A stretch of 7,122 nucleotides of DNA from a bacterium (GTDB lineage Bacteria > ARS69), in contig JALGZR010000134.1 in the NCBI GenBank assembly GCA_025774805.1, positions 1-7,122 on the forward strand. The letters run 5' to 3'. The notes under the pieces are model-generated. The model searched no databases. It was not told the DNA's origin and saw only the letters and a list, made by a program, of their open reading frames with translations. Position numbers and translations under genes: made by a program. Positions 1 to 6,772 of this stretch are shown here, in pieces (within the stretch, counting starts at the first letter, position 1; every line of letters begins with the position of its first letter).

Positions 1-2484
1 GGATTCGAGATCCGCTGGTCGGCCCAGTCGGACCAGCTCTGGTCGGACGAGGAAGGTGGCGCCAACATGGATACCGACGGCATAGGCGCCATCGACAACG
101 TGTACGTCACGTTCAACTCCTCGACCGGGGCGATCGCGGACGACTTCGAGAGCAACAGCTTTTCCGCGCTCGATTCCACCGGGTCCGGCAACGCCCAGTG
201 GGTGCTTGCGACCGCGGCGAGCACCTACGACGGATGGCACCTCGAGCTCGATCCCCAGTACAAGAACAAGGGGAACACCTGCGACTTCTCGAACGATTGG
301 ATGTGGGCCGCCAAGCCGGCGGGGCAGGCGATCCCGGAGAACGACTTCCGGTACGTCGTCACGACTCCGGTCTTCGACGTCTCCGGGTGGATGGGAGCCG
401 TCATCGAGTACGCCGCCTACATGTGCGCGGACGGAGCCCGGGAGGACTTCGTCGATCACGACATCCGGGTGTACAACGACAGTCTGGCACGCTGGACGGC
501 CTGGCGCGACCACGACGGCAGCATCTGGTACTCGGGATGCGACTTCTGGAACATGAACCAGGACCGGGACGATCTGACGGAGTTCCTGGGACCGGGGGTC
601 GACTCGCTGCAGTTCGCGTTCGAGCTGATCGACATCTCCCAGGCCGGCGAGTGGTCCTGGGGCAAGCACGGAGGCGTCCAGTACCTGGTCGACCACGTCT
701 CGTTCGGCAGCTTCGACGGGTCGGGGTCGACCTTCGACATCGTTCGAGGCATCTTCACGGACACGTTCTCGTTGTCGGATCCGTCCCACACGCCGACCCT
801 GGTGAACGCGGAGCAGGGCAACTGGATCGGGATCCACGCGGGCGGCCGTCTCTTCTCGGACCACGACTCGCTGGGCGTGGACGTCCAGGACATCAACGGA
901 ATCACGCGGACGAACATCCATCTCTTCTGGCGCCACGACGCTCCGGCGGGTACTCCCACCGGGCCGCGGGACTCGGAGCAGGTGTTCACGCCCTGGATGA
1001 TGAAGTCCATGGACTACTCCTCTCCCGATCCCCAATCCACCACCGACGAGGGAGTCTACCGGGCCATCATCGGCGACGACACCGGCGGCAACGAGGACGT
1101 CAGCGGGGCGGGGGGTGACAGCCTCATCTGGCTGCCCGGCCTCACCGTCGAGTACTACGTCCGGGCCATCGACAACAGCGTGCCCCCGGACACGGCCACC
1201 TGGCCGGGGGCCGCCTCCGACACGACCGGCAACGCGGAGTTCTCGATCCTGCCGTTCGGCCTGACCTGCGGGCCGGGTGATGAGCGGATTCTCCTCGTGG
1301 ACGACTTCCCGCGCGGCTACATCGACTGGGAGAACTCGACGAACTTCAATCCCACGGGCGGTCTGGGCTGGGGTGCGTTCGACGCCGGCGGCGCGGACTT
1401 CGAGGTGGCCGAGGTCCTGATCGAGAGGGCGCTCGCGCTCCTCTACGGCGGCTCTCCGACCGACCCGAACTGGGACAAGTACGACGTCGGGGGCTCCGGA
1501 TCGGGCGAGCAGGCCGAGCCCCGCGGAGTCTCCGACTCGGATCGAGGTCTCGGTGCGTACATGGACGATCTGAACCAGCCCGTGTACGACCTGATGATCT
1601 GGACCAACGGTCGCTTCGACTCCTACGCGTTCTACGACACGACGCGCATCGAGCTGAAGACCTACCTCGAGCGCGGTGGAAACCTGTTCCTCACGGGGGA
1701 CGAGATCGCGTACGCGCTCGGTCCGACTCCCGGTGTCGGGCAGGCGGCCGATTCGGTGATCCACTTCATCGACGAGTACCTCGGGATCGTGTTCGCGGCG
1801 GTCGGAGACAACCAGACCGGGGACCGCATCCTCAACGTGGTGGGGGAGCCCTCGACCTCGTTGGACGGGGTCGCACTCGGCATCTACGGCGAGTGCCCGC
1901 TCCGGCTGAACTGGGACCGCTTGACCGAGTCGACGGCCAGCGATCTCGACGTTCAGACGCTGGCCACGTATCAGAATGGCACTCCGGAGGACAACGGCCG
2001 CGCCTCGATCATCAAGGCGACCCGGACCGACTTCCCGGAGGCCGGGACCGCGGTAACGACGGGATTCGACATCTGTGCTCTGCTGAACGATCGGGCCCGA
2101 GCCTGCATCCTGGGTCGGGTCATCGTGAACGACTACGGAATGACGGTCTCGAACACACCCGACTGCGTGCGGCACGGCAACGATGCGCCGCAGATCGCGA
2201 GCGGATTCGGATTCAACCTGGCCGCGGCGTCGCCGAATCCGTTCTCGAAGTCGACCTCCATCCGGTTCAGCGTTCCGGGCCGTACGCACGTCAAGATCGA
2301 CGTGTACAACATCCTCGGTCAGAGGGTGCGTACGCTCGTCAACGAGCCGCTGGAGGCGGATTCCTACGTCCGCGAGTGGGACGGCCGCGCCGATGGCGGT
2401 GAGCGGGTCTCCAGCGGGATCTACTTCTACAAGATGGTCGCCGGGGAATACGCCGCCACGAAGAAGGCGGTGCTGTTGCGGTAG
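1..2484 (+). CDS. Secreted multidomain protein with C-terminal type IX (FlgD-like) sorting domain, 5'-truncated
   Basis: The reading frame is open from the first base, so only the last 827 residues are seen. Residue numbers here count from base 1. Residues 1-40 look like the end of a beta-rich domain (GIGAIDNVYVTF at 27-38). About 45-240 is a second, similar aromatic- and Asp-rich domain ending in a comparable strand (VQYLVDHVSFG). About 427-700 resembles the GATase-1/ThuA-like alpha/beta regions of large secreted FCB proteins: LLVDDF near 431-436, YDLMIWTNG at 529-537, and YLERGGNLFLTGDE at 555-568. About 737-827 is a FlgD-like Ig/T9SS type A sorting domain: SPNPF at 744-748, YNILGQRVRTL at 769-779, SGIYFYKM at 805-812, and a basic end KKAVLLR. 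Known members of this class are exported by Sec, carried across the outer membrane by type IX secretion, and anchored or released. No catalytic residues were recognised, so the substrate is unknown. The ATG at 67 is probably internal. A strong hairpin follows the stop codon. Confidence 0.85.
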   Translation, partial: GFEIRWSAQSDQLWSDEEGGANMDTDGIGAIDNVYVTFNSSTGAIADDFESNSFSALDSTGSGNAQWVLATAASTYDGWHLELDPQYKNKGNTCDFSNDWMWAAKPAGQAIPENDFRYVVTTPVFDVSGWMGAVIEYAAYMCADGAREDFVDHDIRVYNDSLARWTAWRDHDGSIWYSGCDFWNMNQDRDDLTEFLGPGVDSLQFAFELIDISQAGEWSWGKHGGVQYLVDHVSFGSFDGSGSTFDIVRGIFTDTFSLSDPSHTPTLVNAEQGNWIGIHAGGRLFSDHDSLGVDVQDINGITRTNIHLFWRHDAPAGTPTGPRDSEQVFTPWMMKSMDYSSPDPQSTTDEGVYRAIIGDDTGGNEDVSGAGGDSLIWLPGLTVEYYVRAIDNSVPPDTATWPGAASDTTGNAEFSILPFGLTCGPGDERILLVDDFPRGYIDWENSTNFNPTGGLGWGAFDAGGADFEVAEVLIERALALLYGGSPTDPNWDKYDVGGSGSGEQAEPRGVSDSDRGLGAYMDDLNQPVYDLMIWTNGRFDSYAFYDTTRIELKTYLERGGNLFLTGDEIAYALGPTPGVGQAADSVIHFIDEYLGIVFAAVGDNQTGDRILNVVGEPSTSLDGVALGIYGECPLRLNWDRLTESTASDLDVQTLATYQNGTPEDNGRASIIKATRTDFPEAGTAVTTGFDICALLNDRARACILGRVIVNDYGMTVSNTPDCVRHGNDAPQIASGFGFNLAAASPNPFSKSTSIRFSVPGRTHVKIDVYNILGQRVRTLVNEPLEADSYVREWDGRADGGERVSSGIYFYKMVAGEYAATKKAVLLR
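2220..2481 (+). other. FlgD-like / T9SS type A C-terminal sorting domain (coding sub-feature)
   Basis: This is the last 88 or so residues of the upstream secreted protein. It starts with the NPF motif that commonly opens these domains (N746-P747-F748). It continues with the alternating strand pattern IRFSVPG, VKIDVYNILGQ, VREWDG, SGIYFYKM, and ends in a short basic-hydrophobic tail right at the stop codon. In type IX systems this domain is recognised at the outer membrane after Sec export and is often cleaved off. No type IX machinery gene is in the window, so use of that route is inferred from the domain alone. Confidence 0.8.
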
Positions 2485-2563: not shown

Positions 2564-3400
2564 ATGGAACGTCTGGAGATTCTCGAGGAGGCCACCCGGA
2601 TCGCGCGCGCCGCCGGCCGTCTCCTTCTCGAATTCGTCGGCGAGTCCCTCGACGTCCGGTTGAAGGGGGACGTGAATCTGGTGACGCGCGCGGATCACGC
2701 CTCCGAGGAGCTCATCGTGAGCGCGATCCGCCGGGGTTTCCCCACGCACGGCATCCTTGCGGAGGAGGGGGGGCGTGCGCCGGCCGGGGCGGCCGCGGAG
2801 CGGCTCTGGGTCGTCGACCCTCTCGACGGGACGACGAACTTCGCGCACGGTCTTCCGCTATGGAGTGTCTCGATCGGGGTCTGCGACGCCGAGGGGCCGG
2901 AGATCGGCGTGGTCTACGACCCCTCTCGGGACGAGTGCTTCACGGCGGCGCGCGGGCACGGGGCCCGGCTCGACGGCGTTGCGATTCGGGTGTCCGAAAC
3001 GGGGGATCTCGGAAGAGCCCTCCTGGTCACCGGATTCCCCTACGACATTCGCACGAGCGAGATCGACAACCTGGACCACTTCACCCACTTCATGAAGCGG
3101 TGTCGGGCCGTCCGCCGACTCGGCAGCGCCGCCCTCGATCTCGCCTACATCGCCTGCGGCCGATTCGACGGGTTCTGGGAGCTGAAGCTGCACCCCTGGG
3201 ACGTCGCGGCCGGGGTCCTGCTGGTGGAGGAGGCAGGGGGTCGGGTCACCCGATTCGGCGGGGAGCCCTTCGACATCCACTCGAACGAGATCGTGGCCGG
3301 TCCGGAGCCTCTGCTCGAGGCGATGCGGGGGGTACTCGCCCTCGGGCGTCGGGCGGCCCCGCCCTCGGATGAGCCACTCCAAACTCTTGAAGAATCATAA
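2564..3400 (+). CDS. Inositol monophosphatase family protein (SuhB-like)
   Basis: This 278-residue protein is close to the usual 260-270 of bacterial inositol monophosphatases. The family removes phosphate from myo-inositol 1-phosphate and related sugar phosphates using Mg2+; it is cytoplasmic, and no signal peptide is present. All diagnostic motifs are intact: KGDVNLVTRAD at 34-44, AEEGG at 66-70 (metal-ligand Glu), WVVDPLDGTTNFAHG at 82-96 (motif A, Asp85 and Asp88), RRLGSAALDLAY at 184-195, and WDVAAG at 212-217 (motif B, Asp213). The order and spacing fit SuhB-type enzymes better than CysQ or fructose-1,6-bisphosphatase. A histidinol-phosphatase or other sugar-phosphate specificity cannot be excluded. 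The last 17 or so residues, rich in Pro, Ala and Glu, extend beyond the core fold. The ATG at 2564 has a purine-rich site just upstream. The gene lies after a strong hairpin, so it probably starts its own transcript, but no convincing promoter is seen in the short gap. Confidence 0.93.
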   Translation: MERLEILEEATRIARAAGRLLLEFVGESLDVRLKGDVNLVTRADHASEELIVSAIRRGFPTHGILAEEGGRAPAGAAAERLWVVDPLDGTTNFAHGLPLWSVSIGVCDAEGPEIGVVYDPSRDECFTAARGHGARLDGVAIRVSETGDLGRALLVTGFPYDIRTSEIDNLDHFTHFMKRCRAVRRLGSAALDLAYIACGRFDGFWELKLHPWDVAAGVLLVEEAGGRVTRFGGEPFDIHSNEIVAGPEPLLEAMRGVLALGRRAAPPSDEPLQTLEES

Positions 3401-3417: not shown

Positions 3418-3446
3418 TTGCGGGCTCCTCCTCCTGTTGCTAAGAT
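3418..3446 (+). promoter_or_regulatory. Putative sigma70-like promoter of the outer-membrane fusion gene
   Basis: TTGCGG (3418-3423) and TAAGAT (3441-3446) are separated by exactly 17 bases. They match the -35 consensus at 3 of 6 positions and the -10 consensus at 4 of 6, including the conserved first TA and last T. The stretch 3381-3450 is clearly more AT-rich than its surroundings, as expected of a promoter. It would give a leader of about 60 bases before the start at 3512. The consensus in this lineage is unknown, so this remains a pattern match. Confidence 0.4.
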
Positions 3447-3500
3447 CACACCGGGGCTCGGACTCCGCGCGCCGAGCTCGCCCGCCCTCCAGACCCCCAC

Positions 3501-3504
3501 GAGG
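3501..3504 (+). promoter_or_regulatory. Ribosome binding site (GAGG) that sets the start at 3512
   Basis: GAGG lies 7 bases before the ATG at 3512, an ideal spacing. The protein begins with a proper signal peptide from that ATG, which supports this start. The other ATG, at 3505, is out of frame. Confidence 0.65.
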
Positions 3505-3511
3505 ATGATCC

Positions 3512-6500
3512 ATGGCCGGACGACTCGGTCTCCCGCGGCTCCTTCCCCTTCTGATCGCCGGTGCTGTCGGACTGCTGCCCGGGCCCGCCCTCGCCCAGTT
3601 CGGGAAGAACAAGGTCCACTACAAGGACTTCCACTGGCGGACGATCGAGACCCCCAACTTCGAGATCTACTACTACGACGGGGAGGAGGAGTCGGCGTTC
3701 CGGGCCGCCCGGATGGCCGAGCGGGCCTACAGCCGCCTCTCCCGGATTCTCGGTCACGAGGTGGAGGAGAGGATCCCGGTCATCGTCTATGCCTCTCACA
3801 CCGACTTCCAGCAGACGAACATCACGCCCGGCCTCATCCCGGAGGGAACCGGCGGCATCACCGAGTTCACCAAGCGCCGGGTCTTCCTGCCCTTCACCGG
3901 CTCGTACGGGGAGTTCGACCACGTCTTGACGCACGAGCTCGTTCACGCCTTCCAGGTGGATCTCCTGTTCGGAGCGACCTCGGACGTCAATCCGTTCTCC
4001 TTCCAGCCTCCACTCTGGTTCATGGAGGGCATGGCGGAGTACCTCTCCCTCGGCGGAATCGATCCGAACACGGAGATGTGGCTCAGGTGGTCCGCCCTCG
4101 ACGGCCAGTTGATCCCGCTCCAGTACATGGACCGCATCTACGACATCCGCGTCTACCGAATCGGTCAGGCCATCCTCTCCTTCCTCGGGGAGCGCTTCGG
4201 GGACGAGCGTCTCGGGGAGCTCCTCCGCAAGACCGTGTACTTCCGTTCGGTCGAGGTCGCGATCGAGAAGTGCTTCGGAATGGACCTCGAAGCGTTGAAC
4301 GAAGAGTGGGAGGATCACGTTCGCCGGAAGTACTACCCGCGAATCGTGGACCTCCACCGACCCGAGGAGCACGGCCGGCGCCTTCTCCGGAAGAAGGGCT
4401 TCAACGGCGTGCACATCGCGCCGTCGCTCTCCCCGGACGGACAGCGCGTCGTCTACATCCGCGACGGCCGGTTCTCGAAGGACATCGTCCTCGCCTCCGC
4501 CATCGACGGAAAGGCGCTTTCCACCCTCGTCCGGGGGGAGCGTTCCGAGGAGTTCGAGTCCCTGCGCTACTTCTACACCTCGATCGGGTGGTCGCCCGAC
4601 GGCCGGCGTCTCGCCTTCCCCTCCAAGAGCGGGGGAGAGGACGTTCTGAACATCTTCGACGTCGAGCGAAGGAAGACGGTCGAGGCCCTGAGACTCGGCT
4701 TCGACACCCTGTATTCCCCCGCGTTCCATCCCGACGGGCGACACGTCGTGTTCTCCGGAATCCGGGGCGGGAAGTCGGACCTCTTCCAGGTCGATCTGGA
4801 AACGCGCGAGCTCGAGCAACTGACCGACGATCCGTATCTGGCGCGAGATCCGCAGTGGTCGCCGGATGGAAAGAGACTCGCCTTCGTGACCGACCGGGGG
4901 CCCGACACCGATCTCGAGAGCCTGATCTTCGGGAAGCCCAAGGTCGCGATTCTGGACGCCGAGACCGGACAGATCCGTGTCCTTCCCGGCCAGGAGGGAA
5001 AGAGCATCACCCCGCAGTGGGGTCCGGACGGACGCCACCTCGCCTTCGTCTCCGATCGGGACGGGGTGTCCGACCTCTACGTCCAGGATCTGCGGACGGA
5101 TCGGCTCCACCGTCTGACTCAGCTCATCACCGGCGTGACCGGAGTCATCGAGTCCAGCCCGCCGTTCTCCTGGTCGAAGAACGGGGAGCGGATCATCTTC
5201 ACCACGTTCATGGGGGACGGTTGGGAGCTCTACGAGATCGCGGATCCGCTCTCGAAGATGTTCGAGGTCGAGCGGTTGGAGCCGCTCGAGCAGATCGCCC
5301 GGCGGGAGCGGGACGGGAGCATCCCGTGGGACCACCCCGATCCCGCCACCGAGGATCGCCTCCTCGCCGCCGCGGAGGCGAGCGGCGACGCGCCGGTCCC
5401 GGAGAAGACCGGGCCAACGACGGCGGCGGCCACCGGACCCGAGGCAGGGACCCCAGTCGTGCGGGCGGCCGAGCCGGCCGGGAGCTCCGAATCCCTTCCG
5501 CCGACCTCGGAGGACGGGGGCGGTCCGTCCTCGGAGCCCGCGACCACCCGGCTGGTCGACCTTCTCGGGCGGGGCTCCTCCCCGGTGCCGGTCGCCGGCC
5601 CGGGACACCTCTCCCCCGAGCGACGAGAGCCCGCCCCCGGAGTCCGCGATTCCGACCCGGCTCCGACGCCTCCCCGTATGACGCTGTCCGACGTGATCGC
5701 CGAGACGACCCATGACCTCCCCCATCCGGACTCGCTCGAGTCGAGACCGTACCGGCTCAAGTGGTCGCCCGACTTCGTGGGAGCTTCCCCGGTGTTCGCG
5801 TCCAACGTCGGTTTCGCCGGCTCGGCTCAGATCGCGATCTCCGACATCCTCTCGAATCACGTGATCCAGATCGGGGCGTCGATCTACGGGTCGTTCGACG
5901 ACTCGGACCTGTTCCTCGGCTACACGAACCAGAAGAGCCGAACGAACTGGGGAGCCGCGGCCTTCCAGTTCCGGAACGACTACGGAATCTACTCGGCCCC
6001 GGACCGAACGGGGTACGAGAGCCAGATCTTCCGGGGGGTCCAGGCCTACATCTACCGTCCGTTCTCCAAGTTCAGCCGGCTGGAGTTCGCGGTCCGAGGG
6101 ATGGCCGTTTCGCGGACCGTCTTCACACAGAGCTTCGTGAGCGGCTACGTGACCTCCGACGAGGTCGGCTCGGACCATCTTTACTACGGGGGGCCGGAGA
6201 TCGCCCTGGTGAACGACAACGTCGTGTACGGTTACTCGGGACCACTCAACGGCCAGCGCGGGCGCCTCTCCGTGGAACAGGCCCTCGGGGACATCCAGTT
6301 CACGACGACGATCGGCGACTACCGCCGGTACTTCGCGCTCGGGCGAACGACCACCTTCGCGATTCGCGTCATCGGGGGAGCGAGCGAGGGGAACACGCCC
6401 CAGATCTTCCGGGTGGGAGGGCCGGAGACCCTGAGGGGAATCGGATACGGATCCTCCCAAGGCGAGCACCTGGGCCTGCTCAACCTCGAGTTGCGCTTTC

Positions 6501-6772
6501 CGCTCGTCGAGACCCTGAGGCTCGGCTGGCCGCTGCGGGTCGGGCTCGGAGGTATCAACGGGGTCTTCTTCTTCGACCTGGGCGGGGCCTGGGATGACGA
6601 CGCCCGCCTGTTCCGGGGCGGCCGTCTCGACGACATCTCGTCGGGATTCGGCTTCGGCCTCCGTCTGGGGCTCGGGTACTTCTCGCTCAAGTACGACATC
6701 GCCCAGCGGCACGACTTCAAAGAGACGCTCGAAGACTCACGGAGTTACTTCTCCATCGGGGTGGACTACTAG
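3512..6772 (+). CDS. Outer-membrane fusion: HExxH metallopeptidase - six-bladed TolB-like propeller - Omp85/BamA-like barrel
   Basis: This 1086-residue envelope protein reads in order as follows. Residues 1-28 are a Sec signal peptide (basic start, hydrophobic core, PALA before Gln29). About 40-280 is a peptidase MA-like zinc metallopeptidase: HELVH at 141-145 (His141 and His145 as ligands, Glu142 catalytic) with WFMEGMAEY at 169-177, where Glu172 is the probable third ligand. About 299-578 holds six PD40/TolB-type repeats, with SPDG-like turns at 307, 361, 406, 450, 504 and 555, so a six-bladed propeller. About 595-740 is a Pro/Ala/Glu/Ser/Gly-rich, probably disordered linker. About 745-1086 is a beta barrel with Omp85 hallmarks: LRGIGYG at 974-980 (Arg975, the lumen-loop Arg-Gly motif), NLELRFPL at 991-998, and a final Tyr. 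No POTRA domain is visible. Homologues are often annotated as TolB-like, PD40 or BamA/TamA proteins; a specific function is not known to me. Outer-membrane insertion with a protease domain in the periplasm or at the surface is inferred. Confidence 0.9.
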   Translation: MAGRLGLPRLLPLLIAGAVGLLPGPALAQFGKNKVHYKDFHWRTIETPNFEIYYYDGEEESAFRAARMAERAYSRLSRILGHEVEERIPVIVYASHTDFQQTNITPGLIPEGTGGITEFTKRRVFLPFTGSYGEFDHVLTHELVHAFQVDLLFGATSDVNPFSFQPPLWFMEGMAEYLSLGGIDPNTEMWLRWSALDGQLIPLQYMDRIYDIRVYRIGQAILSFLGERFGDERLGELLRKTVYFRSVEVAIEKCFGMDLEALNEEWEDHVRRKYYPRIVDLHRPEEHGRRLLRKKGFNGVHIAPSLSPDGQRVVYIRDGRFSKDIVLASAIDGKALSTLVRGERSEEFESLRYFYTSIGWSPDGRRLAFPSKSGGEDVLNIFDVERRKTVEALRLGFDTLYSPAFHPDGRHVVFSGIRGGKSDLFQVDLETRELEQLTDDPYLARDPQWSPDGKRLAFVTDRGPDTDLESLIFGKPKVAILDAETGQIRVLPGQEGKSITPQWGPDGRHLAFVSDRDGVSDLYVQDLRTDRLHRLTQLITGVTGVIESSPPFSWSKNGERIIFTTFMGDGWELYEIADPLSKMFEVERLEPLEQIARRERDGSIPWDHPDPATEDRLLAAAEASGDAPVPEKTGPTTAAATGPEAGTPVVRAAEPAGSSESLPPTSEDGGGPSSEPATTRLVDLLGRGSSPVPVAGPGHLSPERREPAPGVRDSDPAPTPPRMTLSDVIAETTHDLPHPDSLESRPYRLKWSPDFVGASPVFASNVGFAGSAQIAISDILSNHVIQIGASIYGSFDDSDLFLGYTNQKSRTNWGAAAFQFRNDYGIYSAPDRTGYESQIFRGVQAYIYRPFSKFSRLEFAVRGMAVSRTVFTQSFVSGYVTSDEVGSDHLYYGGPEIALVNDNVVYGYSGPLNGQRGRLSVEQALGDIQFTTTIGDYRRYFALGRTTTFAIRVIGGASEGNTPQIFRVGGPETLRGIGYGSSQGEHLGLLNLELRFPLVETLRLGWPLRVGLGGINGVFFFDLGGAWDDDARLFRGGRLDDISSGFGFGLRLGLGYFSLKYDIAQRHDFKETLEDSRSYFSIGVDY

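Follow-up and report, generated by a model that had tools for sequence, protein, structure and literature searches.

The 1086-residue protein encoded in the stretch of DNA analysed here (the window, 7122 bases) is, by its sequence and predicted fold, an Omp85 protein without POTRA domains, of the WD40-Omp85 type, with an apparently intact gluzincin metallopeptidase at its N-terminus. POTRA-less propeller Omp85 proteins are an already known kind. As far as the literature shows, two things have not been described: the peptidase as a conserved component of such proteins, and the near-universal presence of the family in Gemmatimonadota (118 of 121 genomes, of which more below). No functional description of, or experiment on, any member of the fusion was found in the openly available literature.

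The gene and its predicted architecture

The window is an entire contig (G000:C227) of a genome of 5.1 Mb, assembled in 284 contigs and closest, among named relatives, to Candidatus Eisenbacteria. The gene under study (Table 1) reads through as the sequence-only reading had stated. An antisense open reading frame of 1088 aa (3446-6712, minus strand) was rejected as a high-GC shadow because, in comparison with the L009 orthologue from a sister genome, codon positions 1, 2 and 3 of the plus frame diverge by 0.25, 0.18 and 0.43, lowest at position 2 and highest at position 3; the homologues are also in the plus frame. The plus-frame gene is real. It has orthologues in four sister genomes (65-67% identity) and a paralogue within its own genome (contig C63, 35-37% identical). 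The gene order in this family, FlgD_ig protein, inositol-monophosphatase family, fusion gene and putative lipoprotein, is kept in the sister genus. The upstream incomplete frame (window positions 1-2484) ends in a C-terminal FlgD_ig/Por_Secre_tail sorting domain. The downstream putative lipoprotein was considered as a GWxTD protein, a name dropped because there is no Pfam match, and it is left unnamed.

Table 1. Features of the window, with related loci in the last line (window positions unless a locus is named)
Feature	Coordinates	Strand	Basis
Gene under study, 1086 aa	3512-6772	+	open throughout
Probable Sec signal peptide (ALA|Q), residues 1-28	3512..3595	+	sequence; pLDDT low at 1-28
Predicted gluzincin (M9/MA-like) zinc metallopeptidase domain, residues 29-278	3596..4345	+	Peptidase_MA_2 E 6.9e-7; fold; profile
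HExxH zinc site, H141-E142-L-V-H145	3932..3946	+	H141, E142, H145 invariant 81/81
Glu172, third zinc ligand, within WFMEGMAEY	4025..4027	+	81/81; aligns with collagenase WxxEGxAE
Tyr215 (YxxG), probable transition-state tyrosine	4154..4156	+	Y215, G218 invariant; aligns with collagenase YrwG/YnyG
Six-bladed TolB-type propeller (PD40 repeats), residues 285-583	4364..5260	+	Pfam; AlphaFold2; TolB fold
Variable linker, mostly disordered, residues 584-743	5261..5740	+	no POTRA; pLDDT <50 at 624-715
16-stranded Omp85 barrel with aromatic end, residues 744-1086	5741..6769	+	AlphaFold2; fold comparison; PF01103
L974-R975-G976, Omp85 loop-6 RG motif, between strands 11 and 12	6431..6439	+	AlphaFold2; conservation
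Neighbour: inositol-monophosphatase-family gene	2564..3400	+	PF00459 E 9e-69; also neighbour in sister genus, L124
Neighbour: putative lipoprotein gene, truncated by contig end	6886..7122	+	sequence; L124 has putative lipoprotein ORF at corresponding place
Divergent clade, related peptidase-propeller proteins	L136:1260-4463, L141:455-3487, L135:688-3741, L134:1211-4342, L133:860-4192, L137:688-3954, L138:1-2913		profile search

The proposal that three modules are fused in this chain is borne out by Pfam, AlphaFold2 and comparison with folds in the PDB. None of the outcomes named beforehand as refuting it occurred: a barrel is modelled after residue 745, no POTRA fold lies at 580-745, and the predicted zinc ligands His141, His145 and Glu172 are in place in the sequence. 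The AlphaFold2 model of the full protein, built on 81 homologues, has a mean pLDDT of 85 and a pTM of 0.83. Directly after the signal peptide there is a conserved Q29-F30-G31-x-N33-K-V, in which Q29, F30, G31, N33 and V35 are each kept in at least 90% of the 81 homologues. The six PD40 repeats, likened earlier to those of TolB, correspond to six modelled blades with about 23 strands (residues 289-577); the Pfam PD40 profile matches with E 1.9e-30, five stretches being over the cut-off. Against TolB the propeller gives Z 28.3 with rmsd 2.1 over 244 residues at 24% identity. The fusion differs from TolB in having no TolB N-terminal domain by Pfam, in its predicted membrane anchor and in lying far under the TolB equivalog cut-off (133 vs 343 bits); the best listed stretch, 360-463, matches the propeller part of the TolB profile.

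Sixteen barrel strands spanning residues 752-1082 were modelled, the number that had been expected for Omp85, and the LRG motif stands where it had been placed. The nearest folds in the PDB are D. radiodurans BamA (Z 24.7) and TamA and Sam50 (about Z 23), and the Omp85 domain profile PF01103 passes its cut-off at E 1.1e-9. R810, R856, D902, G914, D936, R938, R975, G976, E993, R995 and P997 are invariant in 81/81 homologues, and the C-terminal residue is F, Y or W in 79/81. A 16-stranded Omp85-fold barrel and an RG motif in loop 6 are among the hallmarks of the Omp85 superfamily. The protein shares both with BamA and TamA, but differs from them in carrying a propeller and a protease in the place of POTRA, and it coexists with BamA-type proteins.

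Between propeller and barrel, neither a Pfam POTRA match nor a folded domain in the AlphaFold2 model was found, in keeping with the earlier prediction of a disordered linker without POTRA at 580-745. Confidence is mostly low at residues 590-715, with a short well-predicted segment immediately ahead of the barrel. The linker is the least conserved part of the protein, varying from 29 to 240 residues across homologues, with high nonsynonymous divergence. The protein has none of the POTRA domains (at least one) that some definitions of Omp85 require, though not that of Heinz and Lithgow. It was too broad to say, as the earlier reading did, that the barrels of known Omp85 proteins are preceded by POTRA, since Heinz and Lithgow 2014 list POTRA-less Omp85 subfamilies and define among them WD40-Omp85, a propeller and a barrel likened there to a BamA-BamB fusion (PMC4104836). 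Section 10 of the same paper assigns PF00149 to a separate 'Metallo' class, called metalloprotease (PMC4104836), a label repeated in the 2024 PlpD paper, which describes the metalloprotease and WD40-like Omp85 subfamilies as poorly characterised and the POTRA-less propeller-barrels as intriguing targets (PMC11116518). By architecture, an N-terminal TolB-like propeller on an Omp85 barrel with no POTRA, it is the WD40-Omp85 class that the protein studied here matches. We take PF00149 to be a metallophosphoesterase family, not a protease, so that the 'Metallo' class is no precedent for the fused protease. The members examined here carry an N-terminal gluzincin, whereas the main text of PMC4104836 does not mention a peptidase in the WD40-Omp85 subfamily.

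The peptidase domain

Of the profile matches, PD40 and PF01103 are above their cut-offs and Peptidase_MA_2 (PF13485) is just under it, at 29.7 vs 32.4 bits; the homologues L062 (37.9 bits) and L135 (39 bits) exceed it. The domain is predicted with confidence in the full-length model and was also modelled alone by AlphaFold2, with a pLDDT of 87.5. Its fold is nearest to M9 collagenase (Z 18.0, rmsd 3.1 over 225 residues), with the M30 peptidase lugdulysin as a further match, although the Pfam M9 cut-off is missed (18.9 vs 26 bits). A profile of the domain picks up a Grimontia collagenase by sequence (E 3e-5), in an alignment where the HExxH region, the glutamate of EGxAE and the tyrosine of YxxG coincide. 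The protein thus resembles the M9 catalytic domain in these three elements and in fold; it differs from it in scoring below the family cut-off and in being joined to a propeller and a barrel.

The HELVH motif at 141-145 and the third ligand Glu172, both pointed out from the sequence, are in place, and with the predicted fold they give the HExxH and downstream glutamate of the gluzincin clan MA(E). The distance from E142 to Y215, 73 residues, is the E242/Y315 spacing in the title of a lugdulysin mutant. H141, E142, H145, E172, Y215 and G218 are invariant in 81/81 homologues, a count in which one motif per locus is conserved partly by selection, as loci were collected by a HELVHA or WFxEGxAE pattern; the conservation of Y215, R975 and G976 is unaffected by this. 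Because H141, E142, H145, E172, Y215, R975 and G976 are invariant in 81/81, the protease is probably active. That the domain might instead be a catalytically dead relic, with the peptidase fold kept for binding only, has the least chance of all the readings we considered: the searched literature gave no activity measurement for any member, but HExxH, Glu172 and Tyr215 are invariant and a divergent clade also keeps HExxH and the glutamate.

Distribution and genomic setting

Relatives number more than 500 in reference genomes of about ten diderm phyla. They were found in Eisenbacteria, Gemmatimonadota, Latescibacterota, Krumholzibacteriota, KSB1, Calditrichota, Fermentibacterota, Cloacimonadota, LCP-89 and Fibrobacterota (Chitinivibrionales), and there are single relatives labelled Acidobacteria and Clostridiales, for which mis-binning is possible. 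At E <= 1e-60 the family was matched in 118 of the 121 Gemmatimonadota genomes, with up to three matches counted in one genome, and the three match-less genomes may be false negatives, only six of many candidates having been scored. Many of the Gemmatimonadota members are flanked by DUF2232, ribosomal proteins S6 and L9 or a DegV/FakA-like gene, and on the opposite side by SPOR and SMC genes. Because carriage is near-universal in this phylum and often at this core locus, a housekeeping rather than an accessory use is suggested. A link to anti-phage defence was set aside, there being no PADLOC match.

The tree of the family has two old paralogous clades, with the window protein in one and the paralogue from its own genome in the other. 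Phylum labels cluster on it: they change 12 times, where shuffling gives a mean of 24. A profile search also recovered a divergent clade of seven members (Table 1), in which HExxH and the glutamate ligand are kept with an insertion between the two. Six of the seven have barrel-profile matches, weak in L133, and L138 is cut by the limits of its stretch. WFxEGxAQ stands in this clade in place of WFxEGxAE.

Every barrel-bearing member examined has the peptidase. The reverse is not the case, as a barrel-less version, a 633-aa protein on Salinibacter ruber plasmid pSR116 (L143:3932-5833), matches peptidase and propeller over almost its full length. It is annotated as basic secretory protein-like, and the adjacent gene encodes a predicted S10 carboxypeptidase. 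Five other barrel-less candidates (G008:C252, G118:C6, G011:C329, G109:C185 and G022:C103) all come to no more than a few hundred bases from the edge of a contig, which leaves the Salinibacter protein as the only standing case. The peptidase-propeller can therefore stand as a free module, which favours the view that the barrel is at least an anchor.

The genome that carries the window has 13 Omp85-domain matches in all, POTRA-bearing BamA-type proteins included, and for this reason replacement of BamA by the fusion protein was rejected. Several of these matches have non-POTRA N-termini, an expanded Omp85 repertoire. One, a 782-aa protein on contig C215 (L122:829-3174), has three PDZ matches ahead of an Omp85/ShlB-type barrel match and is another unusual N-terminal fusion to an Omp85 barrel. 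Another, a 601-aa ORF on contig C177 (L120:2197-3999, minus strand) with a putative start, extends near the edge of its stretch; in it a CBM48/AMPK1_CBM glycogen-binding-type domain precedes an Omp85 barrel.

Possible roles of the fusion protein

The most likely role for this protein, to which we give about an even chance, is that of a periplasmic metalloprotease tethered to the outer membrane and serving it, whose job would be to mature outer-membrane or exported proteins or to control their quality. The protein would be exported by Sec and its barrel then inserted into the outer membrane. Since a 16-stranded barrel has both its termini on the periplasmic side, periplasmic placement is the default topology; propeller and protease would then hang in the periplasm from the flexible linker. 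The propeller would probably dock a substrate or partner, standing where other systems have POTRA domains, BamB or TolB. The protease would cut proteins on the inner side of the outer membrane, most likely in maturation or quality control, which would be comparable to the action of the free M48 protease BepA on BAM. The invariance across 81 homologues, the folds, the carriage and core locus in Gemmatimonadota, the phylum-clustered tree and the retention of HExxH and glutamate in the divergent clade all suggest such a role.

Two precedents may be added by analogy. BepA is a zinc protease that acts on barrels assembling at BAM; like the predicted placement of the fusion, it is a metalloprotease on the inner side of the outer membrane, but it is a free protein with a TPR domain, whereas the fusion has its protease and an Omp85 barrel in one covalent chain. 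PlpD and FplA (type Vd, patatin-Omp85) likewise combine an N-terminal enzyme domain with an Omp85 barrel in a single polypeptide, with a lipase and POTRA where the fusion has a zinc protease and a propeller. Neither of the type Vd hallmarks, a patatin domain and POTRA ahead of the barrel, was found by Pfam or AlphaFold2. The PlpD enzyme domain has been shown to be periplasmic (PMC11116518).

Counted against the quality-control role are the Salinibacter protein, from which the barrel may be an anchor only, the BamA-type proteins among the 13 Omp85 matches, and neighbouring genes that name no substrate. It is possible, if rather doubtful, that the barrel is an outer-membrane anchor and nothing else, and that the protein, uninvolved in barrel assembly, is a periplasmic protease for housekeeping or for scavenging nutrients. 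The predicted carboxypeptidase beside the barrel-less version and the nearest fold, collagenase, would fit this, as would a linker so variable that tight coupling to the barrel seems unnecessary. However, R810, R856, D902, D936, R938, R975, G976 and E993 are invariant over about ten phyla, and such conservation seems to be above the needs of a passive anchor.

The sequence-only reading had offered as an alternative an OMP-assembly factor with built-in proteolytic quality control, which is plausible. A stronger version makes the single chain a self-sufficient machine: the barrel would assemble client barrels via its lateral gate, the propeller would dock them and the protease would remove stalled ones. 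We consider this version unlikely; an assembly role is not required, since the genome has its own POTRA-bearing BamA-type proteins. If true, the propeller would replace POTRA and BamB, the protease would be a built-in BepA, and Gemmatimonadota and related phyla would employ this machine alongside canonical BamA.

Self-translocation had also been proposed, by analogy with type Vd proteins: the barrel would export peptidase and propeller to the cell surface as a type V-like secreted protease. This is quite improbable. A long disordered linker, as modelled, could thread the barrel, and there is the historical type Vd proposal for PlpD, but because the PlpD enzyme domain remains periplasmic (PMC11116518) that analogy is weakened and has ceased to speak for secretion. 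A 16-stranded barrel would need to let through two folded domains of about 550 residues, and the linkers of some homologues have only about 30 residues.

There is also a slim chance that the protease serves type IX cargo or other exported proteins, trimming FlgD-type/Por_Secre_tail C-terminal signals. FlgD_ig proteins lie near both the window gene and its paralogue, in a genome with a type IX-like system (149 FlgD_ig matches, a SprA-like translocon and 14 C25 matches). However, with 149 matches in 5.1 Mb FlgD_ig is so common that this proximity is near expectation, and C25, which is present, is the peptidase family of the known T9SS sortase PorU; the link was set aside.

While POTRA-less propeller-barrels have been on lists as uncharacterised since 2014, the intact-looking zinc protease in the members seen, together with the near-universality in the sampled Gemmatimonadota, makes a testable enzyme out of an orphan subfamily and provides the BepA-BAM partnership with a covalent counterpart.
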